From: an uncultured Bacteroidales bacterium | Lineage (GTDB): Bacteria; Bacteroidota; Bacteroidia; Bacteroidales; UBA932 | Direction: 5' to 3' | NCBI GenBank assembly: GCA_945487035.1 | Contig: CALYTI010000004.1 | Location: 1-64,000 of the forward strand | Length of the DNA: 64,000 nucleotides | Shown: positions 1 through 50,977 of the stretch, in pieces | How positions within the stretch are numbered: the first letter of the stretch is position 1 | How the letters are laid out: every line of letters starts with the position of its first letter | The notes under the pieces: generated by a model | What the model saw: the letters and a program-made list of their open reading frames with translations, nothing else | Told to the model about the DNA's origin: nothing | The model's database searches: none | Translations under genes and position numbers: made by a program

Positions 1-9
1 ACCAGAATT

Positions 10-3984: not shown

Positions 3985-4135
3985 GTTATTCCAAATCGTT
4001 TGGTGCCCAATGTGCCCTGGAGGGCGTTCCAGAAGGGGTGAATCTCAAAACGGGGAATTATCACGGGTATTTCGGGATGCACATGTCTTCTACGCATCTC
4101 TGGGAAGGGGTGAATCCCAAAACGATTTGGAACAA
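3985..4135 (+). repeat. 150 bp palindromic element, copy 3 (mosaic)
   Basis: The first ~50 bp (TTCCAAATCGTTTGGTGCCC onward) are identical to copy 1, while from GAATCTCAAAACGGGGA onward it follows copy 2. Consequently the two ends no longer pair over their full length: only the outer TTCCAAATCGTTT/AAACGATTTGGAA part matches, and the inner arm halves are of different types. This is the expected product of recombination or gene conversion between two element types. Confidence 0.85.
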
Positions 4136-4214
4136 GGGCCACTTGGAGATAACGCTTGTGGGACAAAGGCCATTGAGGGGTAGGGTATATTCACGGATTT
4201 CCGGGAATTTCGCT

Positions 4215-4224: not shown

Positions 4225-4605
4225 CAGTTGGGCCTTTTCAACAAGAAACCGCAGGAGTGCAAGACCTTGCTGGATAAGTGACTGTACATTTTCAAGCAGT
4301 CCGAGTTTCTTTCCGAGCAACCTTTTGAGATTGAAGATGGGTTGGTTGAAAAGTTTCTCTACGCTTGTGAAGTGGCCAACTTTAATGAGAAGAAACGAAT
4401 TACTTATTTCGAAGACAAGATGAGCGAAATAGATTACCGTTACGAAATGGACAGCGAGCGCGCCGAGGGTCGTGCCGAGGGTCGTGCCGAGGGTCGTGCC
4501 GAGGTGGCGAAAGCCATGCTCACGAAGGGAATGGACCCTCAGATTGTTGCCGAGTGCACAAAGTTGAGCTTCGAGCAGGTTGAGGAACTTAAGAAGGGCC
4601 TTTAG
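4225..4605 (+). pseudogene. Rpn-family (PD-(D/E)XK) nuclease remnant
   Basis: One frame reads QLGLFNKKPQECKTLLDK, then an in-frame TGA at 4279 where the family usually has Trp, then LYIFKQSEFLSEQPFEIEDG and on through VEKFLYACEVANFNEKKR, YFEDKMSEIDYRYEMDSERA, three AEGR repeats and VAKAMLTKGMDPQIVAECTK. This is the C-terminal third of the recombination-promoting nuclease/putative transposase family, normally ~280-300 residues. The catalytic N-terminal domain is missing and the remainder is interrupted, so it is a decayed copy. The AEGR repeats are encoded by near-identical 12 bp units (4464-4502). An ORF of 87 codons from 4342 survives after the stop. Confidence 0.8.
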
Positions 4606-4633
4606 TTCCGGGAGCTTGCGTATCAGTTATTGA

Positions 4634-4661
4634 GCATCTGCGTTTTTGCAGGTGCTTTTTT
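4634..4661 (+). terminator. Rho-independent terminator after the Rpn remnant
   Basis: GCATCTGC-GTTTTT-GCAGGTGC plus T6, identical to the hairpin at 2816-2843 together with its downstream flank GTGAGACCAATCTC. On the minus strand it lies ~40 nt beyond the end of the DUF4906 gene and may also stop that operon. Confidence 0.75.
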
Positions 4662-4697
4662 GTGAGACCAATCTCCTGTAAGGAGTGCGGAGGGGGC

Positions 4698-7939: not shown

Positions 7940-9463
7940 TTAATCGAATGTTGTTTCGTTTTTGTCATCAACCCAGTCGCTCGTTTCGAAGAATAGCACT
8001 CCGGAGTTAGGGTTGTAGTGTATGTTGACTACTATCTGGACGTCCTGATTGCGGCGGATCTGCTCCAGCGGCACAGGGATTCCGTATTTGTTGATATAAT
8101 TCAAGGAAGGGATGTTTTTGTCGAAATAGACGGAAGCACCTTCAAGCTGAATGTCGTTATCATCAACAAGATCCTCCTTAAGCTGAAAGACTTTCCAATA
8201 ACGGCTATCATTAGTTTTACTACTACTAGATGCAGCAACTTTTGTTGAATTTGCATACATGTAATAATTGCCAGAATAGAATCTAAAACCTTTGGAACGA
8301 GTATAGCCATCATTTGAAACTGAGGTTCCTGAGTCCAAAGTCACGTTTGTACGATTAATTATAATAGTATTAGCTCCTGATGCACAATTTGTTATTACAT
8401 TATTTGTCGTACCAGTGAAAGTCCAAAGATAATTATCGAAATTACTTTTCGCTAAGATCTCATCTACAGTCTCACTGCTAAGACTTAATGTACCATTGTT
8501 ATTATACAGGTAATATTTGTTACTATATGATTGAATTAAACAACGGCCTGCAGAAGACAACGAACCCCGAGCAGTCACTTCTGCACCTCGGGAATATACA
8601 ACATTGTCCTGAACCTTCGCACTGGTCGTACCATTCGGAAACAACCCGCCGACAATCCGGAAGCCGAGGTTAGCGGCGCCTTTGGTGGCAGTTTCATACA
8701 TATACTGCTGAAGATAAATACGTTCACCACCTTGAGGGATAGTATCAGTGACTGTTTCTCCAGCCGAATGAGCATAAGGCCTAAACTCACCGAAATCAGC
8801 AGCCAAAGGAATTGAATAATCAGATTGCTCAAATAAATAGCCAATATTCGGATTTCTCTTTGAAAGAATCAAATCCTTCAGTATTATCGTATTGTTCGTA
8901 GTATTATTTCGGACAGTAATGGTGAGTTTCGCGCAGGTTCGCACAAGTGCGGCTGAAACCTTATTGGTTCCCGCACCGACTGAAAGGCTGACAGAAGTGG
9001 ACAAAGGCATACCCTGGGTGGAATCTCCATACGGAGGCTCGTAATTCACAACTGTCGGAAGCACATACTTCAAAAAAGCATCATCAATTGCCTTGCCGCC
9101 AACGCGATAATCAGTCGGCAAAGTACTGTCCACCGGCAGATTAGCCACCAGGTAAAGCGTGCAGGCACCGCGAGGGATATTCTTGAAAGTAGCGGTAGCC
9201 GTAGATCCGGTACCCGAGATAGTGCACTCAGCATCATCCTGACAAAGGTAGCCCTCAACCTTAGTACCATATACCAGCCAGATATGAAGATTCTTCATCA
9301 CATCCCCGTCAGAAGCCGTCCCAAGCTTGGTTTGAGGCTTTGCAGAGATATTGATGGCAATATTTGAAGGACCAGTCGCCTCCTCCCTGTCTCCCTGAAG
9401 TTCATTCAGACAGGACGTGAGGAAAAGAAGGCCAATGGCCAATATGTTGAGACATTTTTTCAT
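7940..9463 (-). CDS. Fimbrial lipoprotein, fimbrillin/FimB-Mfa2-like
   Basis: A 507-residue lipoprotein: signal MKKCLNILAIGLLFLTSC with lipobox Cys 18. Residues ~25-300 carry the pattern of fimbrial subunits (NIAINISAKPQTKLG, LHIWLVYG, RGACTLYLVANLPVDS, a KLTITVRNNTTN strand). Residues ~310-430 are an inserted Ser/Thr/Asn- and Tyr-rich segment with short repeats (YYLYNNNGTLSLSS and YYMYANSTKVAASSSS), unlike the rest. The C-terminus ends with DVQIVVNIHYNPNSGVLFFE. The start overlaps the upstream gene's stop as ATGA. It is probably an accessory or anchor subunit; the inserted domain is not one I recognise. Confidence 0.65.
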   Translation of the reverse strand: MKKCLNILAIGLLFLTSCLNELQGDREEATGPSNIAINISAKPQTKLGTASDGDVMKNLHIWLVYGTKVEGYLCQDDAECTISGTGSTATATFKNIPRGACTLYLVANLPVDSTLPTDYRVGGKAIDDAFLKYVLPTVVNYEPPYGDSTQGMPLSTSVSLSVGAGTNKVSAALVRTCAKLTITVRNNTTNNTIILKDLILSKRNPNIGYLFEQSDYSIPLAADFGEFRPYAHSAGETVTDTIPQGGERIYLQQYMYETATKGAANLGFRIVGGLFPNGTTSAKVQDNVVYSRGAEVTARGSLSSAGRCLIQSYSNKYYLYNNNGTLSLSSETVDEILAKSNFDNYLWTFTGTTNNVITNCASGANTIIINRTNVTLDSGTSVSNDGYTRSKGFRFYSGNYYMYANSTKVAASSSSKTNDSRYWKVFQLKEDLVDDNDIQLEGASVYFDKNIPSLNYINKYGIPVPLEQIRRNQDVQIVVNIHYNPNSGVLFFETSDWVDDKNETTFD

Positions 9464-10494
9464 AAGATATGAATATCTTCATTGATTTCTACAGGCTCCC
9501 AATCCTTAATCGTAATTTCCACATCAATCTTTGACTGAGAAATGATAAAGGTATAGCTGTAAATGACACCGGGTTCCCATTGCACTTCAGGAAGAGTAAT
9601 CTCATTAACAGCATCCCCGCCCTCACTGGTAGTAAAAAACACCTTGGTCGGACCCTTGGCACCGCTGCTGCTCTGAGGGATAGCCATCACAACATTGTCT
9701 GGTCCATCAAAAATAGGTGTCGCAGCATGAGCTTCATCAAGTTTATAGAAAGGCTTGCTTCCGGTCCACTGATAATACTTTGTGGATGCATCATAATTCT
9801 CTGCAATCCAAATCATCGTAGCCGCATCAAAATCCCCGTCAGGATGGGTATAAAGCACCGTTCCGTTAGGTATAATGCCACTCACAGCAAAAGAAGTGAC
9901 ATTGTCTGTACGTCTGTCATCAACATCCGGGCTATTTTTGAAACCTATACTGAAACTCAGACCTGCCAGAGCGTGGGTGAAAGACATCGGAACCCTATGG
10001 GAAATGACAGCCTCATTAGCCTGTCCCTTCCAGAACGCAAACATAAGGTCTTCGTTACCGGATGCAACCTTGTAGTCAATACTTATCAAATCCACCGAAG
10101 AAGAGTTGAGCACATTGAAGGCAGAGCCGCTGTAAGGATGATAGGCCCTGAAACGGTAGAACTGGTTAATGCTCCAATATGCAAGGTTGTCATACTCCCA
10201 AGAGTCTGTCCGGTAAGAGACAGCTACAGCATCGGTAGAAAGGAAAACATTGGTACCGGTCTCAGAGCGCGGATCCTGAGCATACAGCCCGTAAATACCG
10301 AAAGGCTTGGATCTCATATTTTCCGTAGTGGACAGGACAGTGTTCTCCCCTGCGCCTGCCTTGGTAGATACAAGCGCACTTTGAGCTGTGGAAGCGAAAG
10401 AAATAGCGACTCCACGCTGCTGCGACGGCTTTTGGCAGGCCGCCAGAGCAAGCAGAGTCAAAGCCAATGACAAAAACTTATCCTTAAATCCCAT
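9460..10494 (-). CDS. Fimbrillin family lipoprotein
   Basis: A 344-residue protein, taking the ATG of MGFKDKFLSLALTLLALAAC (lipobox Cys 20); the ORF-track start at 10557 would extend it deep into the upstream gene. It overlaps the upstream stop by 11 nt. Mfa_like_1-type features are clear: KPFGIYGLYAQD, YRFRAYHPYSG, SFTHALAGLSFSIGF, AIPQSS, and a C-terminal IDVEITIKDWEP tail. Fimbrillins are exported as lipoproteins and polymerise by strand exchange after proteolytic removal of the N-terminus (known for Porphyromonas; inferred here). Confidence 0.8.
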   Translation of the reverse strand: MGFKDKFLSLALTLLALAACQKPSQQRGVAISFASTAQSALVSTKAGAGENTVLSTTENMRSKPFGIYGLYAQDPRSETGTNVFLSTDAVAVSYRTDSWEYDNLAYWSINQFYRFRAYHPYSGSAFNVLNSSSVDLISIDYKVASGNEDLMFAFWKGQANEAVISHRVPMSFTHALAGLSFSIGFKNSPDVDDRRTDNVTSFAVSGIIPNGTVLYTHPDGDFDAATMIWIAENYDASTKYYQWTGSKPFYKLDEAHAATPIFDGPDNVVMAIPQSSSGAKGPTKVFFTTSEGGDAVNEITLPEVQWEPGVIYSYTFIISQSKIDVEITIKDWEPVEINEDIHIL

Positions 10495-11362
10495 CTCTTT
10501 CAATCTTAATGTTGAGATCACCCATAATGGTAATCTTGTAAACTGCACATTTCCCACCTCTCAAAAACAGCGGCTTTTCCGCCTTCAGTACCTGATTTTT
10601 GAGAACGGATTCACCGGTCTCTATGTCACAGGTCAGTTCCCATACAGCAAGGCCGTTCTGAGGAATGAGGTACCGGGCAGGAGACAATTCAATTTCTCCG
10701 TCAGTGATGAGGGCATCATCCTCCCAAAATACCAGTTCTCCGCTTTCTGCTGCCTCGGACCACTGCACAGAAGGGTAAGAAGCAAAACTGGCCTTGGAAG
10801 CGATATTGCTAAGACTCAGGCTCTTTACTCTTACGTTGGTGGAGAAGGTCAGATTGGTGCGCACATAAACCCGCAATGAAGCCAAGGCGTGCTCAAATGA
10901 AAGCGGGAGTTCTATCACTTTGCTTCCCTTTTCCAAATCCACCCTGGACACAGAGTAGAGCAAATCCACATCCTCATCCAAAGCATAATCCGAAGCGCTG
11001 ATTCCGCTCTGAGGAGTAAAACTCATCCTTTCAGCAGGGCTGGCTGCATAAAAGGTCAACTCCTCATTGCTCCTTTTCCAAGCCAAATCTTCAGCGACTT
11101 TCCACAATCCGTCTCCGATAGGATAAGCATCAACACCGTTCAACAGGCTCTCACCCTTGGAATTGAAAGCCCAAAGGCGGATAATCTGCTCTGCCGGGAA
11201 GGCCTTGTCCTCCGAATCGGCTATTTTGGTATTCGGGAGTACAACAGGCCTGAAGAGAATCTCCAAAGTGTCAGTCTGAATTGCAGGATTATTCTTGATG
11301 CAGGACAACAGGCAGCCTACACCAAGAATAACAGCAGCTATTTTCAACACTTTGCTTCCCAT
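10484..11362 (-). CDS. Fimbrillin-like lipoprotein
   Basis: A 292-residue lipoprotein with signal MGSKVLKIAAVILGVGCLLSC and a lipobox Cys. It has the order of elements seen in its neighbours: IRLWAFNSKGESLLN, ELTFYAASPAERMSFTP, DVDLLYSVS, LSFEHALASLRVYVRTN, and a final INIKIERDG-type strand. It differs from the other fimbrillins by lacking the Trp-Glu motif near the C-terminus and is the shortest of the set, so it may be a capping or accessory subunit. It lies 20 nt downstream of the preceding gene's stop in the same operon. Confidence 0.7.
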   Translation of the reverse strand: MGSKVLKIAAVILGVGCLLSCIKNNPAIQTDTLEILFRPVVLPNTKIADSEDKAFPAEQIIRLWAFNSKGESLLNGVDAYPIGDGLWKVAEDLAWKRSNEELTFYAASPAERMSFTPQSGISASDYALDEDVDLLYSVSRVDLEKGSKVIELPLSFEHALASLRVYVRTNLTFSTNVRVKSLSLSNIASKASFASYPSVQWSEAAESGELVFWEDDALITDGEIELSPARYLIPQNGLAVWELTCDIETGESVLKNQVLKAEKPLFLRGGKCAVYKITIMGDLNIKIERDGI

Positions 11363-11382
11363 AGCAATAAATCAATATATAC

Positions 11383-12381
11383 TTATTCTATCTCTATGCC
11401 GACACCATCAGCAAAAGTCCAAGTACTTGCAGATGCATCAAACAAAATCGGGAACATACCGGCACCGACTTTGAGTGTATAGGTAACGTGGGTTCCCATA
11501 GACCAGATACCCGAACGGAAGTCCTTTACGAAATAGAGAGTCACAGGGCCTTCATTATTGACGGTAGCATTCTTAAAACTCTTGTAACTGATGGACAGAT
11601 ACGCCTCTGAACGGATGGACTGCGGTATCATCACTTTGTCGATTACCCAGAAAGCATCAGTCAACTTCATTCCCTTGCTGTCCTCATAGATTACATAATC
11701 GGATGCGGGATTTGAAAGATTGGACCAGCTTTCAGCAGATGTACCTCCCTTCTGATAATCTCCCTTGGTATAGTAACCTCCTATTGCAAGTTTGGTGACA
11801 TAGATTGAATCAGCATCGGAGAGGTCAGATTCCGCAATACGGAAAGTAATCTTGCTGAGCTTCTGCCTGAAATGTGTAGGCACACCGGTAAAACCTGCAA
11901 AGCTTTCGTTCTTTACCTTGTCCTTGGCTATGTCGGCAACCAGGATAAGCTGATCACTCATTCCGCTTTGGGTAATGTCCCAACCGCTAACACTAACGCC
12001 CTCATTAGTAATCACTACTCCCTTATCTTTGAGAGCAGCAGGAGAATAAGAGAAGAAAGTCAGTTTCTTGCCATCTTCCCAGAAGTATTTTTTCTCGGTG
12101 GACCAATAGGTATCTTTGAACTTAACCTCTTCAGGGCCGAACTTGAGAGTTGAAGAAGCATAGTCTGTATCCCAGTCCTTACTGGAGTCCAATTCATAAG
12201 CACTTGACATAAAGGTGCTTGTGGTAGGGAATGCAGAAGCGGCCTTAGTCTGGGCGACAGGCGAAGACACCACGTTATAGGCTACGCGACTCCGTTCTTC
12301 CCATTCCCGGACTTCGTTCTTGGTACAGGAAGCGGACAAAGCGCAAGCTAAAATCAAATATGTCAGTACTCTTCTATTCAT
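11383..12381 (-). CDS. Fimbrillin family lipoprotein
   Basis: A 332-residue protein starting at MNRRVLTYLILACALSASC (lipobox Cys 19). The ORF-track start at 12420 adds 13 residues without a signal; the chosen ATG overlaps the end of the upstream gene by 7 nt. Features: SRVAYNVVSSPVAQTKA near the mature N-terminus, FMSSAYELD, KKYFWEDGKKLTFFSYSPAA, the membrane-usher-like FRQKLSKITFRIAES strand, and a SASTWTFADGVGIEIE end. It is most similar in layout to the next upstream gene (TKAAGEYPTNVPFVSSAFYL), suggesting tandem duplication. Confidence 0.8.
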   Translation of the reverse strand: MNRRVLTYLILACALSASCTKNEVREWEERSRVAYNVVSSPVAQTKAASAFPTTSTFMSSAYELDSSKDWDTDYASSTLKFGPEEVKFKDTYWSTEKKYFWEDGKKLTFFSYSPAALKDKGVVITNEGVSVSGWDITQSGMSDQLILVADIAKDKVKNESFAGFTGVPTHFRQKLSKITFRIAESDLSDADSIYVTKLAIGGYYTKGDYQKGGTSAESWSNLSNPASDYVIYEDSKGMKLTDAFWVIDKVMIPQSIRSEAYLSISYKSFKNATVNNEGPVTLYFVKDFRSGIWSMGTHVTYTLKVGAGMFPILFDASASTWTFADGVGIEIE

Positions 12382-12386
12382 AACAA

Positions 12387-13496
12387 TCAAATAATCACAC
12401 TGAATTCCGAATCGCTCCACTCTTCCTGGTCCGGTGCCCAGGTAATGAGGTCAGCCTGACGGTTGAAGGTGATTCTTACCTTTATCTGGCGATTGATGTT
12501 TATTTTGTTCGCACTGCTCTGGAAAAGGTCATAGAGACTTACATAAGCGGTTTTCTGAACATCGCTGGTACCGCCAGAAGTGTAAGACCTTTGCGTATAA
12601 ACCAGTTTCAGATGCGGCACTGTGCTCGGATCGGCTTCGCCGGGATTCGCGAAGGTCTGAGGCAGGAGCATAATATGGGAGAGGCCTCCTGTTACCGGAG
12701 TCATCGATGATGTGCTGTATAAGACCTCCTTTCCGCTACCATTGTACCAGGTATATGATGAGGCGACGGCGCTTCCGTCCGGAATCCAGGCTCCGATTTT
12801 GGCAACTGCGGTTCCTACATCGTAGGATGAGTAGTAAGTGCCTTTCTGGATGAGCTTGCAGATTTGTATTTCATTGACTATGAAGACAACGTCTCCGTCC
12901 TGATAACTTCCGTTGTGTCCGTTGGCGTAGTCTTCGAAGGTGTTGAATTCGAAGCCGACAATCTGAGAGAGTTTGTGGCGGAATATGGTCGGGACTCCGG
13001 TGTAGAGACCGACATTCTGGTTTGAGGTCTGTTCTGTCTGCACATCGGCGACCATAATGTCGATGTTCTGGTTGGCGTTCACATCCCAGCCGGTGATGGT
13101 TATACCGGTATCTTTGTCTATTTTGGTTTTTGGCTGAATTGCCGCAGGGCTGTAGGAGAGGAAGTTGAGCTTTCCTGTGTGTGGCCAGTAGTAGGAGCGG
13201 GTGGCGTCTTTCCAGAGGCCGTCAACATAGGAGATGGTGGCGTTTTCGATGTAGGCTTTGGCTTCGGAGTGGTTTGCAGCCCAGGTTTTTCCGTCTTCAA
13301 GGTAGAATGCGCTTGAAACGAATGGTACATTGGTAGGATATTCTCCTGCCGCTTTTGTTTGGTTGTATTGGACGACATTATAGCAGATCTGCGCCTGGGT
13401 AGGCTCTGACTGCTCTACCTTGGTGCAGGAGAGCGGCAGGGTTGCGAAGCATAGGCTCCAAATTGCTATTTTACCGAATCGTTTCATCTCTTTCAT
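12387..13496 (-). CDS. Fimbrillin family lipoprotein
   Basis: A 369-residue protein starting at MKEMKRFGKIAIWSLCF with lipobox LSC before TKVEQSEPTQ; ATG 13487 (MKRFGK) is an equally acceptable start. The ORF-track start 13619 is rejected because it translates the intercistronic hairpin. Motifs shared with neighbours: NQTKAAGEYPTNVPFVSSAF, YYWPHTGKLNFLSYSPAA, GVPTIFRHKLSQIVGFEF, HIMLLPQTF, and the C-terminal ITWAPDQEEW. It is probably a pilin-type subunit. The hairpin at 13503-13532 lies 7 nt before its start. Confidence 0.85.
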   Translation of the reverse strand: MKEMKRFGKIAIWSLCFATLPLSCTKVEQSEPTQAQICYNVVQYNQTKAAGEYPTNVPFVSSAFYLEDGKTWAANHSEAKAYIENATISYVDGLWKDATRSYYWPHTGKLNFLSYSPAAIQPKTKIDKDTGITITGWDVNANQNIDIMVADVQTEQTSNQNVGLYTGVPTIFRHKLSQIVGFEFNTFEDYANGHNGSYQDGDVVFIVNEIQICKLIQKGTYYSSYDVGTAVAKIGAWIPDGSAVASSYTWYNGSGKEVLYSTSSMTPVTGGLSHIMLLPQTFANPGEADPSTVPHLKLVYTQRSYTSGGTSDVQKTAYVSLYDLFQSSANKININRQIKVRITFNRQADLITWAPDQEEWSDSEFSVII

Positions 13497-13502
13497 TTTT
13501 GG

Positions 13503-13532
13503 ACCCATCGGGACGGTCAAGTCCCGGTGGGT
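13503..13532 (-). promoter_or_regulatory. Intercistronic hairpin, copy B
   Basis: Two 12 nt arms (ACCCATCGGGAC and GTCCCGGTGGGT on the plus strand) pair with one mismatch around a 6 nt loop. It sits 16 nt after the stop of the upstream fimbrillin and 7 nt before the next ATG. It is the twin of the hairpin at 14695-14724. With no T-run behind it on the minus strand, it is more likely an mRNA processing/stability element or attenuator than a full terminator. Confidence 0.75.
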
Positions 13533-13548
13533 AAGGGGATTAGTTGAT

Positions 13549-14673
13549 TTAAACCCCTGTTGAAGTAACATCATCCCAGTTTTCAACTGAAGGAGCCCAG
13601 TAAATCTGGTTGAGGTCAACAGTAATAGTGAAGGAATATTTCTTGTTGATCCCCCAAGATTGAGTTGCAGAATAAATATTGAAACTCTGAACTACAGTCT
13701 CATCAGAATAATCTGATGCAGAAGTGTAAGAACGGATTACATAGGTAATCTCGATCTTCTTGTTATCATTTTCTGCAAAAATCTGAGGACGAACAAGAAG
13801 GTAACCGTTTGTATTGATATCTCCTGAGCTTAATGCAACTGCAGTGGTATTGAACTCAGAGGCATTTCCCTGAGCAAGAGTGGCCTCTTCATTATTATAC
13901 CAGGTATAATCCGTTCCCTCAGAACTTGTAAGAGGAAACCAAACACCAATGTTAATATTTGAAGGTTCAATTCCAGAAGAGAATGAACCTTTGGTAACAA
14001 TTTTCTGAAGCTCAATCTTCTTGAGGAAGAAGAGCTTTGAACCAGCCTGAGGGAGGTTATTTTCATCAAGATTTCTGAAATCTTCTTTTGTTTTGATAGA
14101 GAACTTTACAATCTGAGCAAGTTTGTGACGGAATACTGTAGGAACTCCGGTATAACCACCATGGCTTCCGTTAGCAGTTTGATTATCAACCCTGTCGGCA
14201 ATCATAATATCAACTTTCTGGTGTGCATCAACATCCCAATTTGGAATCTTGATTTCTGCCATTGCATCATCTGCAGGGGCGCAAGTCACTGTTTCACTCA
14301 ATTCAGCATATGGACTATAAGACATAAAAGTCAAATATCCCTGCTTTGGCCAGTAATACTTAGGATCGGTTGTCCACGCAGAACCATTGGTCGCTGAAGT
14401 TGGATTCGACACCTTAGCATTGTCAATATACTTAGGAGCCGCTTTGCTATAACCATCTTCAGTGGTGTAGAAGAAAGCAAAAGTACCGAAAGGTCTGTCA
14501 GTTGGATACGTGGCACTATTGTCAAAAGTACCCGCTTTCGTTGCAGCCTTGTCTACAACAGCCTGGAAAGTAATTTCCTGATCAATATTCACAGGCTTCA
14601 CCTCATTTTTCGTGCATGCTGCAAGTGCTACACAAGCAGCAAGCGCAATAATGATGTTCTTTTTCATAAGCAT
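13549..14673 (-). CDS. Fimbrillin family lipoprotein (duplicate pair, second)
   Basis: A 374-residue lipoprotein (372 if translated from the second ATG at 14667). Signal KKNIIIALAACVALAAC is followed by TKNEVKPVNIDQEITFQAVV, almost the same as the upstream paralogue. Shared motifs: RPFGTFAFFYTT, KYYWPKQGYLTFMSYSPYAE, GVPTVFRHKLAQIVKFSIKT, and the C-terminal DLNQIYWAPSVENWDD. The degree of similarity over the whole length points to a recent tandem duplication with the 14735-15847 gene, including the intervening hairpin. Likely a major pilin or its variant. Confidence 0.88.
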   Translation of the reverse strand: MLMKKNIIIALAACVALAACTKNEVKPVNIDQEITFQAVVDKAATKAGTFDNSATYPTDRPFGTFAFFYTTEDGYSKAAPKYIDNAKVSNPTSATNGSAWTTDPKYYWPKQGYLTFMSYSPYAELSETVTCAPADDAMAEIKIPNWDVDAHQKVDIMIADRVDNQTANGSHGGYTGVPTVFRHKLAQIVKFSIKTKEDFRNLDENNLPQAGSKLFFLKKIELQKIVTKGSFSSGIEPSNINIGVWFPLTSSEGTDYTWYNNEEATLAQGNASEFNTTAVALSSGDINTNGYLLVRPQIFAENDNKKIEITYVIRSYTSASDYSDETVVQSFNIYSATQSWGINKKYSFTITVDLNQIYWAPSVENWDDVTSTGV

Positions 14674-14694
14674 TATTTGTTATATTATCTTTGG

Positions 14695-14724
14695 ACCCAA
14701 CGGGACGGTCAGGTCCCGGTGGGT
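14695..14724 (-). promoter_or_regulatory. Intercistronic hairpin, copy A
   Basis: Arms ACCCAACGGGAC and GTCCCGGTGGGT pair with a single mismatch at the same position as in copy B, with a nearly identical loop (GGTCAG versus GGTCAA). It starts 11 nt after the stop of the first fimbrillin gene. The arm and loop conservation between the two copies implies a function or very recent duplication. Confidence 0.75.
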
Positions 14725-14734
14725 AAAATTTTTA

Positions 14735-15847
14735 TTAGAAGGAAACTGTTGTTGTAGAGCCGGACTCCCATTCAACAACTGAAGGTGCCCAGTAAATCTG
14801 GTTAAGAGACACTGTGATGTTGTAAGTGTACTTCTTGTTGATTTCCCATTTTTCTGAGACTGACTTAAGGGCAACGGTCTGCTCCACAGTCTCGTCTGAA
14901 TACTGTGTTGTCTCAGTTCCCCAGAAGGTACGGATAGTGTATTTCAACTTCAGATACTCTACGCTTGTATCCTGAGCAGAAGCACTAGCTTTCTCTGTCA
15001 TTTCCTGCGGAAGAACAAGGAGATAATCGTTAGCTATAGTCTTAGGAGAAGTAAACGCATCTGCAGCAAAAAGACTCTCTGTATCAGTCGTTGATTTATA
15101 CCACACATAAGGTGTATTAATCCTGTCATTAGTCTTTTCCCAAGTACCGATATTGGATTGACTTGGCTGGTTTGTACCGTTAAAAGAACCTATGTAGGCA
15201 ATATTGCCTATTTCAATCTCATTAAGATAGAAGAACTTGTCACCTACAGCGGGAGCACCAGGAGTGCCGGTTGAATAAGCCTTGTCTGTCTTGATAGTGA
15301 AGTCAACCACCTGAGCAAGCTTATGACGGAAAACAGTCGGCACACCATTGTACCCTGAACCATTTGCATCGGTAGTGTTGGAAGTCTGGTTATCAATTCT
15401 GTCTGCAACCATCACATCAACAGTCTGATTAGCATCCACATCATAGTTTGTAATCTTGAAGCCATCGCTAAAATCACAAGACACAAGATTATTGAGCGTT
15501 TCGTATGGACTGTAAGAATAGAAGGTCAATTTACCCTGCTTTGGCCAGTAATACTTCGGACTGGTTGTCCAGTTGTTTCCATCTGATCCGGCAGTGTAGC
15601 TAACCTCGGCATTGTTGATATAACGGTTAGAAGTGCTGCCAAAAGAGGTTGTATAGAAGAAAGCAAAAGTACCGAAAGGAGTTTCTTTAGGATATGCAGT
15701 TCCATCTACAATCGCTTTCGTTGAAGCTTTGTTGACTACCGCCTGGAAGGTGATCTGCTGATCAGCCACAACAGGCCTAACCTCGTTCTTTGTGCAAGCT
15801 GCAAGTGCTACACAAGCAGCAAGAGCAAGAAAAATAGATCTTTTCAT
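14735..15847 (-). CDS. Fimbrillin family lipoprotein (duplicate pair, first)
   Basis: A 370-residue lipoprotein, signal MKRSIFLALAACVALAAC with lipobox Cys 18, then TKNEVRPVVADQQITFQAVV. Motifs: TPFGTFAFFYTTS, KYYWPKQGKLTFYSYSPYE, GVPTVFRHKLAQVVDFTIKT, LLVLPQEM, YTIRTFWGTETTQYSDETVE, SLNQIYWAPSVVEWE. It is the first pilin-like gene after the DUF5119 gene (51 bp AT-rich gap without a terminator). As the first and best-placed fimbrillin before a hairpin it may be the most abundant subunit; this is inference. Confidence 0.88.
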   Translation of the reverse strand: MKRSIFLALAACVALAACTKNEVRPVVADQQITFQAVVNKASTKAIVDGTAYPKETPFGTFAFFYTTSFGSTSNRYINNAEVSYTAGSDGNNWTTSPKYYWPKQGKLTFYSYSPYETLNNLVSCDFSDGFKITNYDVDANQTVDVMVADRIDNQTSNTTDANGSGYNGVPTVFRHKLAQVVDFTIKTDKAYSTGTPGAPAVGDKFFYLNEIEIGNIAYIGSFNGTNQPSQSNIGTWEKTNDRINTPYVWYKSTTDTESLFAADAFTSPKTIANDYLLVLPQEMTEKASASAQDTSVEYLKLKYTIRTFWGTETTQYSDETVEQTVALKSVSEKWEINKKYTYNITVSLNQIYWAPSVVEWESGSTTTVSF

Positions 15848-15898
15848 AAATGATAATAGTTAATTGTTAATATTGTTAATGTTTTATAATAATTTCAA

Positions 15899-43978: not shown

Positions 43979-44833
43979 TTACCTCCCTTCAGTTACGAGT
44001 TTGATGAAAATGTCGTTCATTCTAGGCATCAGCTCTTTGTAGGAGTTGATGGTGACACCTTTTGCGATATAGCTCTCGAGGGTGCTGGTGCCGTCGGTTT
44101 CTTTCGGGAGGACAAGTTCGTGACGACCTTGGTCATCCGTATAGATGAGTTCGACATTGTTGTTGCCGTATTCGCGGCGGATGTCGCTTACGCCTCCGGT
44201 GATTACGAGCTTGGACTGGTTGATGAGGGCTATGTTGTCGCAGAGTTCCTCGACGCTTTCCATATTGTGGGTGGAAAGGATGATGGTGGCTCCTTCGTCT
44301 TTGAGCCTGAGAATCTCGTTGCGGATAATTTCAGCGTTGACCGGGTCGAATCCGGAGAAAGGTTCATCGAGTATCATCAGTTTCGGCTTATGGACTACAG
44401 TTGTGATGAACTGGAGTTTCTGGGCCATACCTTTGGAGAGTTCTTCGACTTTTTTGTCCCACCAGCCTTCTATGCCGAAGCGGACGAACCATTCTTTGAG
44501 GGCCTGCTGCGCCTGGGATGAGCTCATCCCCTTGAGTTGGGCGAGATACATTGCCTGTTCGCCGACTTTCATTTTGCGATACAGGCCGCGCTCCTCAGGC
44601 ATATAGCCTATTTTTTCGACATCGCGCTGGGTGATTCTCTTTCCCTGAAAGAGGACTTCCCCGCTGGTCGGGATGGTGATTCTGTTGATGATGCGGATGA
44701 GGGTGGTTTTTCCCGCTCCGTTCGGTCCGAGCAAGCCGAAGATTTTCCCTTCGGGGATTTCGAGGCTCACATTGTCGAGAGCCACCTTCGGTCCGAAGGT
44801 CTTGCTTACGTTTTTGATTTGGATGATTGACAT
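43979..44833 (-). CDS. ABC transporter ATPase, NatA-like
   Basis: A 284-residue ATPase: Walker A GPNGAGKTT (Lys42), Q-loop region YMPEERGLYRKMKVGEQ, signature ELSKGMAQK (a normal variant of LSGGQ in this sub-family), Walker B LMILDEPFSG, H-loop STHNMESVEELC, and a C-terminal regulatory extension (residues ~225-284). It pairs with the following permease. It is preceded by a ~190 nt leader full of GC-rich repeats (see separate entry). Confidence 0.9.
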   Translation of the reverse strand: MSIIQIKNVSKTFGPKVALDNVSLEIPEGKIFGLLGPNGAGKTTLIRIINRITIPTSGEVLFQGKRITQRDVEKIGYMPEERGLYRKMKVGEQAMYLAQLKGMSSSQAQQALKEWFVRFGIEGWWDKKVEELSKGMAQKLQFITTVVHKPKLMILDEPFSGFDPVNAEIIRNEILRLKDEGATIILSTHNMESVEELCDNIALINQSKLVITGGVSDIRREYGNNNVELIYTDDQGRHELVLPKETDGTSTLESYIAKGVTINSYKELMPRMNDIFIKLVTEGR

Positions 44834-45037
44834 AGTTTGTTATTTGTTTATCTGCTGCCTCCGCGTTGCTGCGGCTTGGCAGTTGCTGTTGCTGCTGCTT
44901 GGCCTGGCTGCTTTGGCTTGGCTGCCTGGCTTGGCATGGCTGCTGCTTGGCTTGGCTGCTGCTTGGCTGCTTTGGCTTGGCTGCCTGGCTTGGCATGGCT
45001 GCTTTGTCGTTTGCGGGGCGCACAACTTACAAATATA
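44834..45037 (-). promoter_or_regulatory. natA leader with promoter and repeats
   Basis: On the minus strand a perfect -7 box TATATTTG lies at 45037-45030, giving a leader of about 190 nt. Within it, 44903-45005 is low-complexity sequence built from GGCTTGGCTGCC and GGCTGCTT-type units, including an exact ~37 bp block (CTGCTTTGGCTTGGCTGCCT onward) repeated with a 59 bp period. The leader is open in one frame (rich in Gln, Ala, Lys, Ser) but that is likely a by-product of the repeat. Confidence 0.6.
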
Positions 45038-45136
45038 CAAAAATATTGCAAAAACCATCGGAAGACATGCGGCTGCTGGCTTCTTCTCCCAGCCCGCGCC
45101 GGCAGGCTGTGCCCTCCAGAACCGTCTCGCTTCGCT

Positions 45137-45317
45137 CGACAGGCTTGCGCCTGTCGCAAAACTTCTCAACCCCAGTCAGCTTTGCTGACAGCCCCTTTCA
45201 GGGGCACACGGCCTTCACGATGTTGCGGCCGGTGGCTCCGCTGCTTCGGTTTTCTACGAAAACCTCGCTGACGCTCCACCACGACCGCTGACGCGGTCCC
45301 ATCGCGCCTCAGCGCGA
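45137..45317. repeat. Array of six perfect short hairpins
   Basis: Six perfect inverted repeats follow one another: CGACAGGC-ttgc-GCCTGTCG (45137), GTCAGC-ttt-GCTGAC (45175), GCCCCT-ttc-AGGGGC (45191), GGTTTTC-tac-GAAAACC (45248), GACCGC-tgac-GCGGTC (45283), TCGCGC-ctca-GCGCGA (45302). Stems are 6-8 bp and loops 3-4 nt, and each stem has its own sequence, so they are not copies of one repeat. A seventh, GAGGC-gga-GCCTC, is at 45380. No ORF in the region shows protein-like composition. Confidence 0.85.
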
Positions 45318-45428
45318 CGGCGGAGGCCGGGATGTAGCGAAGCGGAATCGGTAGGCCGGGAGCCGCAGAGGATGGTGCGGAGGCGGAGCCTCTGCCAAAA
45401 GTGCCGAGGGTGGCACAGGTTCTCGGAG
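45318..45428. other. Rest of the natA-holA spacer
   Basis: GC-rich non-coding DNA between the hairpin array and the left 195 bp inverted repeat; the only structure I see is the GAGGC-gga-GCCTC hairpin at 45380-45392. Together with the flanking entries this makes the 44834-45703 gap the largest gene-free stretch in the window. Confidence 0.5.
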
Positions 45429-45623
45429 GGCAGCTGCCTGCCGTCTCTCCGAAGTATCCCAATGTGTCACATCAGGAACAAAATCGGCCTCTCACGCACT
45501 TTTCTCTCCTCTTCTCACACATCAGGAAACCACTAACCTGCCCGCGGTGCAAAAAACAGGGCAAAAATTGCTTTTGGGGCGGAAAAACCGAGTCAAAAGC
45601 AAAAAATGAGGCAAAAATTGCAC
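45429..45623 (+). repeat. 195 bp inverted repeat, left copy
   Basis: Matches the reverse complement of 49256-49450 over 195 bp with only about 6-9 differences by eye. It starts with the palindrome GGCAGCTGCC, then has two ACATCAGGAA motifs ~50 bp apart, then an A-rich half with nested pairing: TTGCTTTTG (45568) with CAAAAGCAA (45594) around a CGG-AAAAA-CCG hairpin, all enclosed by GTGCAA and TTGCAC. It ends 45 nt before the holA promoter. Confidence 0.9.
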
Positions 45624-45667
45624 CGTGGGGGATACTGTGAGTAAATTTCCAGAAATCCATCCCGAAA

Positions 45668-45699
45668 TTTGACACAGTCGGGAATTGTTGCGATATTTG
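45668..45699 (+). promoter_or_regulatory. holA promoter TTTG-N20-GATATTTG
   Basis: TTTG at 45668-45671 and GATATTTG at 45692-45699 (one mismatch to TAnnTTTG) are 20 nt apart. The ATG is at 45704, five bases after the box, again predicting no 5' leader. Confidence 0.55.
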
Positions 45700-45703
45700 C
45701 CGT

Positions 45704-46747
45704 ATGGCAAAACAAAGTACGGACGCTGCGGCCCTGAGCCGCCAAATGATTGATGACATCAAAGCCGGCAGTTTCAAACCGGTATATCTGCTGATGGGAG
45801 ACGAGCCCTATTACCCGGACCTCGTTTGTCAGGCCATTCTCGACAATTGCGTTGACGAGATGGCACAGGACTTCAACCAGACCGTGTGCTATGGCGCTGA
45901 TGTAACTGCCGATTCGGTTGTAAGTGCAGCCAGGCAGTATCCTATGATGTCCGACCACGTGCTTGTAGTTGTCAAGGAAGCCCAGCTGATGAAGACTCTG
46001 GAGAAACTCAGCGTCTATACCGAAAACCCTCAGGACACAACCGTACTGGTAATTCTGATGCACGGAGCCTCAGCAGACAAACGCAAAGCCCTCTACAAAT
46101 CCATTCAGAAAAGCGGAGCCGTTCTCGAAAGCAACGCCCTCAGGGACTATGAGATTCCCCGCTGGATAGACAATTATTACAAGTCCAGGGGCCTCACCAT
46201 CGAGCCTGCCGCTGCAGCTCTTATGGCGGAAAGCATAGGCACAAGTCTTTCCACCATAGTCGTGGAGACCGACAAGATGCTCAAGAATCTGCCGGAAGGA
46301 ACCACCTCCATCGGTGTTTCCGATGTAGAGAAGAACATAGGAGTCTCCCGCCAGTACAGTATTTTCGAACTCACCAAGGAACTCTCGGCACGCAATTCCG
46401 CCAAGGCGCTCAAAATCGCTTCCCACATAGGCAACGCCGCAAAATTTGCTATGCCTATGGCCGTCAGCGCATTATATACCCACTTCAACAGGATTCTGCG
46501 CTATGGTGCACTGCTCTCCCGCGGCGGCTACCCTTCGCCTGAAGACAAAGCCAGGGCCCTCGCAGGAGTGAATCCTTATTTCTATAAAGAATACGACCAG
46601 GCCGTCCGCAACTACTCCGTGCGACAGGCTATGGAAGCCGTTACCCTGCTCTGCGATTACGATTATCTGGGCAAGGGTGGCGATGGAGGCAATCAGAACC
46701 CGGGGGAACTGCTGGTGGAGCTTACCGCGAAACTGCTGAGCTTGTGA
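45704..46747 (+). CDS. holA: DNA polymerase III delta subunit
   Basis: A 347-residue HolA-family clamp-loader subunit. Landmarks: PVYLLMGDEPYYPDLVCQAI at the N-terminus, SDHVLVVVKEAQLMK, IPRWIDNYYKSRGLTIEPAA, SIGTSLSTIVVETDKML, and the domain III region ISRQYSIFELTKELSARNSA-like stretch. Delta opens the beta clamp within the tau/gamma complex. It lies inside the inverted-repeat-bounded segment. Its 3' end overlaps the convergent phosphoesterase gene by 26 nt. Confidence 0.9.
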   Translation: MAKQSTDAAALSRQMIDDIKAGSFKPVYLLMGDEPYYPDLVCQAILDNCVDEMAQDFNQTVCYGADVTADSVVSAARQYPMMSDHVLVVVKEAQLMKTLEKLSVYTENPQDTTVLVILMHGASADKRKALYKSIQKSGAVLESNALRDYEIPRWIDNYYKSRGLTIEPAAAALMAESIGTSLSTIVVETDKMLKNLPEGTTSIGVSDVEKNIGVSRQYSIFELTKELSARNSAKALKIASHIGNAAKFAMPMAVSALYTHFNRILRYGALLSRGGYPSPEDKARALAGVNPYFYKEYDQAVRNYSVRQAMEAVTLLCDYDYLGKGGDGGNQNPGELLVELTAKLLSL

Positions 46748-47798
46748 AGCCCCTCTTGCCGTGGTAGCCGTCTGCGCATCCCACGCGCTGCACGGTAAGT
46801 TGTTTGCTTACAGGGTCATATGTAACCAGATTGAAGGCGTCGGCATTCTCGCCGCTGCGGTCGCTGTCCAGCATATAGCGGTCCAGCTCTCCCGCCTTGT
46901 CCACCAGAATCTGCAGCTGGCGCCCGTGATTCTTCACATAGCCCACATAGTCATTGTGGTTATGGCCGCTGAGCCAGCATACGAAGGTACCTCCCTCATC
47001 TATAAACTTGTCCACCGGGTCGAAGGCGCAGTCGGGCATACTCTCGATCTGCACCGCTCCCGGGTTGGATGAGGCCGGATAATCCCTGCCGTCCGGAGTG
47101 AGGGCCGGATCGAAAGGTACCATACCGAACTCCGCAGGATAATGGGTAACTGTAATGACAGCGAGGCCAGCTTCCCTGGCAGAGGCCAAAGTGGCGGTAA
47201 ACCAGTCAGCCTGGGCATCGTCGTAATGGATGCAGTCCAACACAATCAGGCGGGTGGCGCTGCAAGGATAGTCTTTATAATAATAACAAGCTTGATAATC
47301 AGGCGACTGCGCATCATTAACCCCCGCAGGCTGGCACACTCCCCATCCGCTAATGGTAGGATGCTGAGGGTCCGGGCCCACGAAGAAGCGCGAGTAGGCT
47401 TCCTCCTTGGTGGCATCGTAAGGCTTGTCGGTCTGGGACCATAGCAGATGGCCCTTCCAGCAGTCGTGGTTGCCTATTGTGTTGAGGATGCGTCTGCCTC
47501 CGGGCACGCTTTCGAAAACATTTTCATCATCGTAATAGCACATCACTCCGTCTCCCGTGTGGATGGCGTCGTCCACATCGTGGCTGTCCATATATTCCAC
47601 TATTCTCTGAAGATGGAGCGCCGAGCCGTGAAGGTCGGAGAAATGAAGCAGCTGCAGGGGTCTGAGCTGCCCGGCGTCTGTGCCGTGGTTGCAGGCGGAT
47701 GCCGCGATGCAGGTGAGTGCAGGGCTAATGGCGGATGCAGGGCTAGTGGCGGATGCCGTAAGCAGGGCGGCGAGGCAAAGTCTTAGTGTCAAAAGCAT
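46722..47798 (-). CDS. Exported metallophosphoesterase
   Basis: A 358-residue protein starting at MLLTLRLCLAALLTASATS, a signal peptide; the ORF-track start 345 nt upstream lies antisense to cyuA and is rejected. Metallophosphoesterase motifs in order: HFSDLHGSALH, HTGDGVM, NTIGNHDCW, VTHYPAEFG and LSGHNHNDY. The Ala/Cys-rich stretch after the signal is unusual. A secreted phosphatase or phosphodiesterase is likely; substrate unknown. Divergent from cyuA with only 55 bp between start codons. Confidence 0.85.
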   Translation of the reverse strand: MLLTLRLCLAALLTASATSPASAISPALTCIAASACNHGTDAGQLRPLQLLHFSDLHGSALHLQRIVEYMDSHDVDDAIHTGDGVMCYYDDENVFESVPGGRRILNTIGNHDCWKGHLLWSQTDKPYDATKEEAYSRFFVGPDPQHPTISGWGVCQPAGVNDAQSPDYQACYYYKDYPCSATRLIVLDCIHYDDAQADWFTATLASAREAGLAVITVTHYPAEFGMVPFDPALTPDGRDYPASSNPGAVQIESMPDCAFDPVDKFIDEGGTFVCWLSGHNHNDYVGYVKNHGRQLQILVDKAGELDRYMLDSDRSGENADAFNLVTYDPVSKQLTVQRVGCADGYHGKRGFTSSAVSR

Positions 47799-47818
47799 AA
47801 TATTTTTCTTATATACTG

Positions 47819-47848
47819 CAAATTTAAGGAATTGTATTCTTATTTTTG
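47819..47848. promoter_or_regulatory. Divergent promoters of the phosphoesterase and cyuA
   Basis: TAAATTTG on the minus strand (47826-47819, for the phosphoesterase) and TATTTTTG on the plus strand (47841-47848, for cyuA) both match TAnnTTTG. cyuA's ATG is 5 nt after its box. A TTTG usable as -33 for the minus promoter (47852-47849) abuts the cyuA box, so the two promoters overlap. Confidence 0.55.
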
Positions 47849-47853
47849 CAAAT

Positions 47854-49167
47854 ATGGAAAAAGAGATTCTGCAGATTCTTGCCGAGGAGATTGTTCCGGC
47901 AGAGGGTTGTACCGAACCGATTGCACTGGCATATGCCGCTGCGCTGGTTAGTGATGCACTCAACAGCAACAATAGCACCACCAGCACCAAAGCACCGTTA
48001 CTGGACAAGTGGCCGCAGATGGATGTGTATCTGTCCGGGAATATGATTAAGAACGTGAAGAGCGTACATATTCCGAATGCTGAAGGGAAGGTGGGTATTG
48101 AGACGGCAGTGGCGATGGGAGCCTTGCTGGGTTGCAGTGCCAAGAAGCTGATGGTGATTGCGGACGTGGACCACAGCCGGCTGGACGAAGTCTATCAGTA
48201 TGCAGAATCGGGACTTATCAAGGTGCATTTCCAGAAAGACTGTCCAAAGCTTTACATCCGCATCGAGGCGGAGGATGTGCTGGTTGAGATTACCGATTTC
48301 CATACTCACGTCAACAGGTACAGCCGGGCCGGAGTGTCACTGCTTTCGGAAAGCGATGCATCTTGTTCGGATAGCGTCAAGAAAGAGGAACTCACCGACC
48401 GCAGTTTCCTCACTATCGATAACATCTGTCACACTGCCGACACCATAGCACTGGAGAAAATCGAGCCCCTTTTCAACAAGGTCATAGAACTCAACACGGA
48501 GATTGCGCGCGAAGGTCTTCGCGGAGACTATGGAATCTCCATAGGCAAGACCATTCGCGAAGGAATAGATGAGGGAATCTACGGAGCGGATCTCAAGAAT
48601 ATGCTCTCCTCCTTTGCTGCAGCTGGCAGCGATGCCCGAATGAACGGTTGTCCTCTCCCGGTTATGACGACCAGCGGCAGCGGAAACCAGGGTATGACCT
48701 GTTCCCTGCCGATTATCGAGTTCTGCCGGATGCGCGATCTGCCTCACGAGAGACTCATCCGCGGGCTCTTCGTTTCCCACCTCATCACGATTCATATCAA
48801 GGAAGTAATAGGACGCCTTTCGGCATATTGCGGCGCTATGGCTGCGAGTGCTGGAGTGAGCGGCGCGCTGACCTATCTTGACGGAGGCGATGCCAAGCAG
48901 ATAAAAATGGCCGTAGAGACGACTCTGGCCACGGTTTCGGGAGTAATATGCGACGGAGCTAAGAGCAGCTGCGCAACTAAGATTGCCACCGGCATCAGCG
49001 CGGCGGTCGATGCTTTCGTTGCTGCCCGCAAGGGACGCGGACTGAGCTATGGCGAAGGCATTGTCGGCTGCGACATCGAGAAGACCATTGACCACGTCGG
49101 CACCCTCGGTTCCGACGGAATGCGCCTCACCGACGATGTCATCCTCGACATAATGCTTCACGAATAA
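47854..49167 (+). CDS. cyuA: L-cysteine desulfidase family protein (UPF0597/CyuA)
   Basis: A 437-residue protein starting at MEKEILQILAEEIVPAEGCTEP; the ORF-track start lies in the divergent gene. Family landmarks: EGCTEPIALAYA (Cys19, a proposed Fe-S ligand position), GIETAVAMGALLG, MTTSGSGNQGMTCSLPI, GVICDGAKSSCATKI (further conserved cysteines), and SYGEGIVGCDIEKTI. Members related to serine dehydratase alpha break L-cysteine to pyruvate, sulfide and ammonia using a 4Fe-4S cluster. No cyuP transporter is adjacent. Confidence 0.88.
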   Translation: MEKEILQILAEEIVPAEGCTEPIALAYAAALVSDALNSNNSTTSTKAPLLDKWPQMDVYLSGNMIKNVKSVHIPNAEGKVGIETAVAMGALLGCSAKKLMVIADVDHSRLDEVYQYAESGLIKVHFQKDCPKLYIRIEAEDVLVEITDFHTHVNRYSRAGVSLLSESDASCSDSVKKEELTDRSFLTIDNICHTADTIALEKIEPLFNKVIELNTEIAREGLRGDYGISIGKTIREGIDEGIYGADLKNMLSSFAAAGSDARMNGCPLPVMTTSGSGNQGMTCSLPIIEFCRMRDLPHERLIRGLFVSHLITIHIKEVIGRLSAYCGAMAASAGVSGALTYLDGGDAKQIKMAVETTLATVSGVICDGAKSSCATKIATGISAAVDAFVAARKGRGLSYGEGIVGCDIEKTIDHVGTLGSDGMRLTDDVILDIMLHE

Positions 49168-49255
49168 ACTCTATCCTCCCATTCCGTACAGGAGAAGGGT
49201 CTCTGGTGTACAAACCGGGAGAGAACCTGGCCAATCGCGCCTCAGTACCTTCATC
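49168..49255. other. Spacer after cyuA
   Basis: Non-coding. No clear terminator hairpin with a T-run precedes the right inverted repeat; the T-rich half of that repeat may serve this role. Confidence 0.5.
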
Positions 49256-49450
49256 GTGCAATTTTTGCCTCATTTTTTGCTTTTGACTCGGTTTTTCTGC
49301 CCCAAAAGCAATTTTTGCCCTGTTTTTTGCACCGCGGGCAGGTTAGTGGTTTCCTGATGTGTAAGGTAAGGAGAGAAAAGTGCGTGAGAGGCCGATTTTG
49401 CTCCTGATGTGACACATTGGGAAACTTCGGAGAGACGGCAGGCAGCTGCC
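49256..49450 (-). repeat. 195 bp inverted repeat, right copy
   Basis: Reverse complement of the left copy at 45429-45623. Differences cluster around the second ACATCAGG spacer (CTTCTC versus TTACCT in the other copy). It lies between the convergent cyuA and HAD genes, so it is intergenic at both ends of the enclosed 3.6 kb segment. Confidence 0.9.
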
Positions 49451-49503
49451 TGCCGGCGGTTATATGGGAGAAGAAGCGGGCTGCTACCAGCCGGCGGAGG
49501 GCT

Positions 49504-50103
49504 TCAAAGGAGGGCGGAGCGCAGGTCTGCGGCGAACTGGGCGGGGCCCCGGAAGAGTATGGCGGTCATTCCGACGGAGCGGGCGCCGTCAATGTTTTCG
49601 GGGCGGTCATCGGTGAAAAGGCACTCGGCAGGGTCCAGGGAGAACTTCTCGCAGAAACGGCGGAAAATCGCCGGGTCGGGTTTGATGAGCTTCTCTTCTG
49701 AAGAAATGAGGGTACCGTCCATCATCTGAAGAATATCGTATTTGTCCCTGACTTCATATACCGCCTCGCTCCAGTTGGTAAGGCCATAAATCCCGTAACC
49801 CTTGGCCCTGTACTCGTTGATAAGAGACCTCATCCCATCAATCTCACCTATAATGATTTCCATATGCCTGTCGTGGAACTGCTGCAGATGCCACGCAAAC
49901 TGAGGATACTTGGCCTGAAGTTCGGCAGTAAGCTCTGCCGTATTCTGTTCTCCCTTGTCAAGACGGTTCACAAAATGCTCCCTCTCGGTCATAGCAGCAA
50001 ACTGGAGCAAATCCTCCTCGCACCCGAAAAGCGAATAGAAAAACTTCTCTATATTGTAGTCCACCAGGACCTTGCCGAAATCAAAAACAAGATTCTTTAT
50101 CAT
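49504..50103 (-). CDS. HAD-like hydrolase
   Basis: A 199-residue HAD phosphatase starting at MIKNLVFDFGKVLVDYN; the ORF-track start 27 codons earlier overlaps atpG. Motif I is DFGKVLVD (Asp8; the second acidic position is Gly, as in the epoxide-hydrolase-like and YihX-type HADs), motif II YGLTNWSE, motif III Lys in EEKLIKPDPAIF, motif IV LFTDDRPENIDGA. A YihX-like sugar-phosphate phosphatase is a fair guess. It follows atpG by 7 nt and appears to be co-transcribed with the ATP synthase. Confidence 0.85.
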   Translation of the reverse strand: MIKNLVFDFGKVLVDYNIEKFFYSLFGCEEDLLQFAAMTEREHFVNRLDKGEQNTAELTAELQAKYPQFAWHLQQFHDRHMEIIIGEIDGMRSLINEYRAKGYGIYGLTNWSEAVYEVRDKYDILQMMDGTLISSEEKLIKPDPAIFRRFCEKFSLDPAECLFTDDRPENIDGARSVGMTAILFRGPAQFAADLRSALL

Positions 50104-50110
50104 AAAAAAA

Positions 50111-50977
50111 CTATTGCTGGGCACCTCCTGCCAAATCCAGAATCTCAGCAGTAATCTTGGCCTGGCGTCCCTTGTTATACTCAAGTGTAAGTTCGGAAAG
50201 CATTTCGTTGCCGTTGTCGGTCGCTATCTGCATAGCAACGGTGCGCGCCGCGTGCTCGGCAGCATTGCTGTCAAGAAGCACGGAGTAAAGCTTGAGGCGG
50301 AGCACCTGAGGAAGCAATTGCTCGAAAAGTCTTTCCCTTCCAGGCTCAACAATATAGTCCTCATAAGTCTCTGCACCGTTGCCGCTGCTCAGGTCTGCAA
50401 GCAAAGAAGTATCGAAAGGCAGCAGGGTCTCGACTTGAGGCTTCTGGCTTGATGTCGAAACGAAATGGTTCCAAACCATTATCACTTTGGAAAAGCGGCC
50501 GTCAACATAGCCCTTAATCACCTTTTCTGCAAGTTCGCAGGCCTTTGCATAGCCAGGATGATGGGCCATCTCGCTCCAATCCCCCTCACTGGCTATGCCC
50601 GCCGCGGCAAAAGACTCGGCCATCTTCTTTCCTACGGCATAGAGCACAACCCCATCCTTTCCGCCACAGAGGTCAACCATTTTCAATGCTTTCTTGAAGA
50701 CATTGGCATTGAAGGCACCGCATAGCGAAGAGTTGGAACTGAATGCAATAATTGCAACAGGAAGCGACTCAGCCCCTTCCCTGCACAGGGCGGAGAGCGA
50801 AGACGGTTTGGCGATACGAAGGATGGAAGCGAGTTCCTGCTCATAGATGGCACAGCGCTCGGAGGCCTGCTGGGCCTTGTGAAGCTTGGTGGAGGCCACC
50901 ATCTTCATCGCCGAAGTAATCTTCAGCGTGCTGCGTACAGACGAAATGCGCCCCTTTATTTCCTTCAGCGAAGCCAT
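50111..50977 (-). CDS. atpG: ATP synthase gamma subunit
   Basis: A 288-residue gamma subunit. The N-terminal coiled coil is ASLKEIKGRISSVRSTLKIT with the SAMKMVASTKLHKA motif, and the C-terminal coil contains EHAARTVAMQIATDNGNEML and LTLEYNKGRQAKITAEILDL, the catch-loop region. It is the rotor shaft of F1. It starts 1 nt after atpA. Confidence 0.95.
   Translation of the reverse strand: MASLKEIKGRISSVRSTLKITSAMKMVASTKLHKAQQASERCAIYEQELASILRIAKPSSLSALCREGAESLPVAIIAFSSNSSLCGAFNANVFKKALKMVDLCGGKDGVVLYAVGKKMAESFAAAGIASEGDWSEMAHHPGYAKACELAEKVIKGYVDGRFSKVIMVWNHFVSTSSQKPQVETLLPFDTSLLADLSSGNGAETYEDYIVEPGRERLFEQLLPQVLRLKLYSVLLDSNAAEHAARTVAMQIATDNGNEMLSELTLEYNKGRQAKITAEILDLAGGAQQ

Follow-up and report, generated by a model that had tools for sequence, protein, structure and literature searches.

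A pair of composite palindromic repeats facing each other across holA, a phosphoesterase-like gene and a cyuA-like gene in an uncultured Bacteroidales bacterium

Long and nearly identical sequences that face each other across an essential replication gene raise the question as to whether the segment between them is a genetic switch, the cargo of a mobile element or the DNA enclosed by two copies of a dispersed repeat. Such a pair is present in a 64,000-nucleotide stretch of DNA (the window) from an uncultured Candidatus Cryptobacteroides-type, gut-type Bacteroidales lineage, where an initial annotation had described two intergenic copies of equal length, about 95% identical and opposite in orientation, enclosing 3.6 kb with holA, a phosphoesterase gene and cyuA. 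Self-comparison of the window confirms the pair and extends it slightly: the two arms (45424-45623 on the plus strand and 49256-49455 on the minus strand) are 200 nt each, 96% complementary, opposite in orientation and separated by 3,632 nt. Their core alignment (45429-45623 / 49450-49256) has 188 identities over 195 positions with E = 4e-90, so that the resemblance is not due to chance, and the arms contain perfect runs of 64, 42, 32, 27 and 21 bp. The left arm ends 80 bp before the start of holA and the right arm starts 88 bp past the stop codon of cyuA. The internal palindromes noted earlier are also present: on the plus strand of the left arm, TTGCTTTTG/CAAAAGCAA give an 86-nt foldback with z = -6.1. 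The Bacteroidales promoter pattern has no match inside either arm, and an Rfam scan of the window returns no match. The arms and the genes inside and around them are as follows.

43979..44833, minus strand: ABC transporter ATPase gene, left outer neighbour, head-to-head with holA
45424..45623, plus strand: left arm of the inverted pair, comprising outer hairpin end, A and B, from self-comparison of the window
45704..46747, plus strand: holA, DNA polymerase III delta subunit (TIGR01128, E=1.6e-66)
46722..47798, minus strand: calcineurin-like phosphoesterase (PF12850, E=3.7e-5, a weak match below the curated cut-off)
47854..49167, plus strand: cyuA-like L-serine/L-cysteine dehydratase-type protein (SDH_alpha, PF03313, E=1.7e-57)
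49256..49455, minus strand: right arm, 96% identical to the left, from self-comparison of the window
49504..50184, minus strand: HAD-family hydrolase gene, right outer neighbour

The three gene names hold, that of the phosphoesterase through its weak metallophosphoesterase match. The phosphoesterase-like gene is convergent with holA, and ATP-synthase genes lie beyond the HAD hydrolase gene. Other features of the window include, between the ABC gene and the element called C below, an irregular array of tandem GCTTGGCTGC-type units (44894-45006), a cluster with four fimbrillin-like (Mfa_like_1) proteins (9460-15850) and a protein with a Kinase-PolyVal domain, a domain type described from polyvalent proteins (807-1793).

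The genome searched for further copies is the window's own, a draft of 60 contigs and 1.94 Mb that is 89.9% complete; genome-wide repeat counts derive from similarity searches scoring a limited number of candidates, plus retrieved stretches. Two repeat families, A and B, are combined in each arm, and the outer side of the left arm, and of this arm only, is broken by a third element, C.

45079..45091, plus strand: outer homology block (GCTTCTTCTCCCA), with its counterpart at 49465-49477, minus strand (p ~0.001)
45098..45443, plus strand: C element, 346 bp, hairpin-rich and non-coding, with terminal inverted repeat CCGGCAGGC.GTGCCCTCC.GAACC
45456..45530, plus strand: A unit of the left arm, with a pair of palindromic sites TTCCTnATGTGTCACATCAGGA spaced by about 50 bp
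45543..45628, plus strand: B module of the left arm, two GCAAAAAxxxGGCAAAAATTGC half units with 50-bp spacing, folding back
49256..49344, minus strand: B module of the right arm, 99% identical to the left B
49349..49423, minus strand: A unit of the right arm
49436..49455, no strand assigned: stub, a 20-bp perfect palindrome CGGCAGGCAGCTGCCTGCCG at the position matching C in the left arm

In family A, palindromic sites of 22 bp come in pairs with a spacing of about 50 bp. The family corresponds to query positions 33-120 of the arm and recurs about 70 times, in about 35 clusters on about 25 contigs, at 73-90% identity, the copies often being arranged in tandem, one about every 117 bp. The clusters are essentially all intergenic and their neighbouring genes have all orientations, convergent neighbours being the commonest (12 of the 33 clusters with both neighbours seen, as taken from simple ORF calls). 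Family B (arm positions 124-200) carries a GCAAAAATTGC motif with 50-bp spacing and has few copies, mainly on contigs C21, C19 and C14; neither family contains a recognised gene. The initial annotation had held that a single orientation in deep data together with many scattered single copies would reduce the pair to an ordinary dispersed repeat: module A is indeed scattered in this manner, whereas the complete A+B unit occurs in the genome only twice, as the two arms. A further A unit lies at the contig start (window 8-82), before a LysR-type HTH gene just 120 aa long.

An alignment of 46 A units yields TTCCTnATGTGTCACATCAGGA ... TCCTCATCTGTCACATCAGGAA, and compensatory changes in these units equal those of shuffled controls for the local and the long hairpin alike; the palindrome thus appears to be kept as a sequence and not as a structure, and A was rejected as an RNA or hairpin element for want of covariation above the controls. 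Judged by its sequence, A looks like a conserved site array, and its palindrome is a candidate binding site or transposition end. The family is limited to few species, being present in 3 of 400 sampled genomes of the same genus, and has no match in plasmid and phage collections. In one other genome (G308), whose holA is 60% identical, an A dimer of 240 bp shares 90% identity with a dimer on contig C8 while its flanks are unrelated, which indicates mobility or horizontal transfer of A. To this extent the suggestion that both ends descend from a mobile element stands, as the repeats from which the arms derive show the behaviour of small mobile elements.

Where C interrupts the left arm, the right arm keeps the 20-bp palindromic stub, and since the 13-bp block that lies beyond C is common to both arms, the duplicated segment was formerly longer than the present arms. 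C is itself dispersed between genes, with five long copies elsewhere (contigs C46, C36, C34, C21 and C44, 86-95% identity) and a total of about 27 places in the genome, many of them occupied by shorter forms. It has terminal inverted repeats of about 28 bp, and its fold is a long hairpin with branches (z = -4.5); seven short copies share a near-constant core, and their outer stems vary by site yet stay complementary. The genome also encodes two Y1 transposase-like genes (contigs C22 and C9), for which the best NCBIfam match, REP_Tyr_transpos, is below cut-off. Pieces of C lie within about 300 bp of both, a closeness that hints at a relationship and is suggestive only, while A and B are absent from the flanks of either gene. 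The Y1 gene of contig C22 (C22:33613-34515; L152 961-1863) has hairpins TTTCGTATGGGT..AAACCACCCATACGAAA on both sides and a C piece about 170 bp from its 3' end. Another palindromic repeat of the window (TTGTTCCAAATCGTTTTGG ... CCAAAACGATTTGGAACAA) has three copies of 160-195 bp, all within 3.5 kb (620-778, 1957-2151 and 3943-4138), and ends resembling it are also found on contigs C8 and C9.

Among known systems, REP/BIME sequences are associated with RAYT (TnpA-REP) transposases, of which the Bacteroidetes subclass 2.6 is reported to have atypical flanking structures (PMC3733652, PMC6006769). As in these systems, the repeats described here are short, palindromic and intergenic, with several families per genome, clustered copies, many of them in the case of A (about 35 clusters), and a restriction to few species; the genome likewise has Y1 transposase genes, one flanked by its own hairpins. 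Unlike REP/BIME, A and B flank neither Y1 gene, and the hairpin of A shows no compensatory changes. There is also a likeness to Bacteroidales MITEs such as BrickBuilt of Porphyromonas gingivalis, which has internal tandem repeats of 23-bp units (PMC4596501): non-coding, always intergenic and species-limited, with palindromic ends and internal tandem repeats. The combination of terminal inverted repeats with a lack of coding capacity is found in C with its ends of about 28 bp, and A and B are without a recognised gene. In this comparison, made by description and not by sequence, the unit length differs from that of BrickBuilt and the copies form inverted pairs.

Inverted pairing recurs in this genome. 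Further pairs 2-4 kb apart are found on contigs C33 (67 bp, 97%) and C21 (B arms, 95%), and weaker ones on C2 (85%), C18 (81%) and C30 (another family, 88%). The C30 pair (L197 19-263 / 3134-3254) belongs to a palindromic family with a 50-bp period (GTGCGCAAAAACG...TGCGCACC), its copies being inverted, 88% identical and 2.9 kb apart. On C21, the second inverted pair of B repeats (L031 1315-1575 / 4591-4800) has arms that take in 98 bp with the 3' end of a gene, of which the other side, the right arm, carries a non-coding copy; read as a simple staggered-break inversion, this pair predicts an ancestral gene order that differs from the order in genome G006. Pairwise identity among A units of the window's genome has a median of 79% and a 99th percentile of 93% (1,531 comparisons). 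The window pair, with 94% over A and 99% over B, and the C33 pair, with 97%, are above this background, and for each window arm the closest copy is the other one. There are four inverted A pairs within 4.5 kb, marginally above random placement (P = 0.05), and all four have the same polarity, plus then minus (P = 0.006, tested after the pattern was noticed). While the pair around holA is ordinary in kind, the recurrence of such pairing is mildly surprising.

The history of the locus can be followed in relatives, compared with one genome per species. Most Bacteroidales relatives compared have holA ahead of the ABC gene and on one strand with it; in nine (L092, L097, L099, L100, L105, L109, L113, L132 and L151) the two genes are head to head as in the window, and the reversal of holA relative to the ABC-transporter operon in this one Cryptobacteroides-type subset is an older flip, independent of these repeats. 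These nine species are without the arms, so that the head-to-head junction is older than the arms and the present ABC-holA arrangement looks ancestral; in the six of the nine with coordinates given, the gap between ABC and holA is about 55-104 bp, as compared with 870 bp in the window. In the nearest relative, L091, with 80% nucleotide identity, the same block of holA, phosphoesterase and cyuA is present, with A units upstream of holA and no repeat in the 205 bp available after cyuA, which suggests an older left cluster and a younger right arm. The ABC contig of L091 starts inside the ABC gene, and HAD was not found among its broken contigs. The cyuA-like protein is 85% identical in L091 and 36-40% identical to those of genus relatives, so that the cyuA block is lineage-specific.

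Does the enclosed block invert? As initially proposed, recombination between the arms would break no gene, both being intergenic, and with their 64-bp perfect run the opposed arms, 96% identical, are long and alike enough for homologous recombination of the RecA type. Arms of such length could support rare RecA-dependent inversion, and a RecA-mediated inversion of the 3.6-kb block is possible. Small gene-order flips are, in addition, common in the clade (holA versus the ABC operon; CobW versus its neighbour). It is nevertheless improbable that recombination between the arms flips holA, the phosphoesterase gene and cyuA back and forth in the population: the assembly contains one orientation of the block and no inverted state was seen in it, and the left junction is that of the nine arm-less species, the present state being the one that looks ancestral. 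Since the segment between the arms also includes the sequence in front of holA that is conserved with L091 (from about 45664), its inversion would have hardly any effect on holA and would not switch it. Invertons of gut Bacteroidales, whose inverted repeats of 10-40 nt are acted on by an invertase with its gene often nearby (PMC11892184), have in common with this locus the inverted repeats around a segment; here, by contrast, the arms are 200 bp long, the segment is a 3.6-kb group of genes, and the scanned ORF proteins of the window include no recognised serine or tyrosine recombinase. It is less probable still that the A+B arms are the ends of a transposable unit with the three genes as cargo. 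Inverted ends around genes do occur on several contigs and cyuA is at most 40% identical to that of other members of the genus, but holA belongs to the core genes and stands beside the ABC gene, its ancestral position, the end families are also found singly, the segment contains no transposase, and the inner boundaries of the arms have no homology in common.

The best reading is that both arms are copies of a single composite cluster, intergenic and built from non-coding, palindromic, dispersed repeats, and we think it likely that these lineage-specific repeats were locally duplicated or converted into an inverted pair that is a passive substrate and not a recombinase-driven switch. Most likely, either the cluster upstream of holA was copied, inverted, to the far side of cyuA, or a pre-existing cluster near cyuA was converted to match the left one. 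Either route could have run through RecA-type repair or template switching, and afterwards the left side would have acquired C or the right side would have lost it. The C21 arms with their non-coding copy of a gene 3' end, a case of local inverted copying elsewhere, are in line with a right arm that is a recent local copy. Against such a copy, independent insertions of A+B could be envisaged, the other copies being absent from a draft that is 90% complete. Two insertions of a discrete A+B mobile element that came to lie close and facing by chance would agree with the mobile behaviour of A, seen in the G308 dimer (90% over 240 bp, with holA only 60% identical and unrelated flanks); they are rather unlikely, as no other A+B unit is found in the genome searched and the outer 13-bp block of both arms is unexpected for unrelated target sites. 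Two observations weigh against a purely passive pair, namely that over 195 bp the arms are much more alike than A copies usually are and that same-polarity pairs are in excess in a post hoc test, and these could point to a function for pairing. An active local process that copies palindromic clusters with adjoining sequence, inverted, to a place 3-4 kb away is a tentative idea, of low probability; if true, it would produce inverted pairs, almost identical, on either side of small blocks of genes (C4, C21 and C33, with weaker cases on C2, C18 and C30) and would seed frequent small inversions.

Inverted repeats around an essential replication gene are easily over-read, and the analysis tells a pair of repeats that is striking but passive apart from a genetic switch: as a passive substrate, the pair may allow rare homologous inversion and would not turn holA on or off. 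It also records, from an uncultured gut-type lineage, several repeat families without an Rfam match in the window, and the recurring pattern of inverted pairs could help to explain the fluid gene order of the group.
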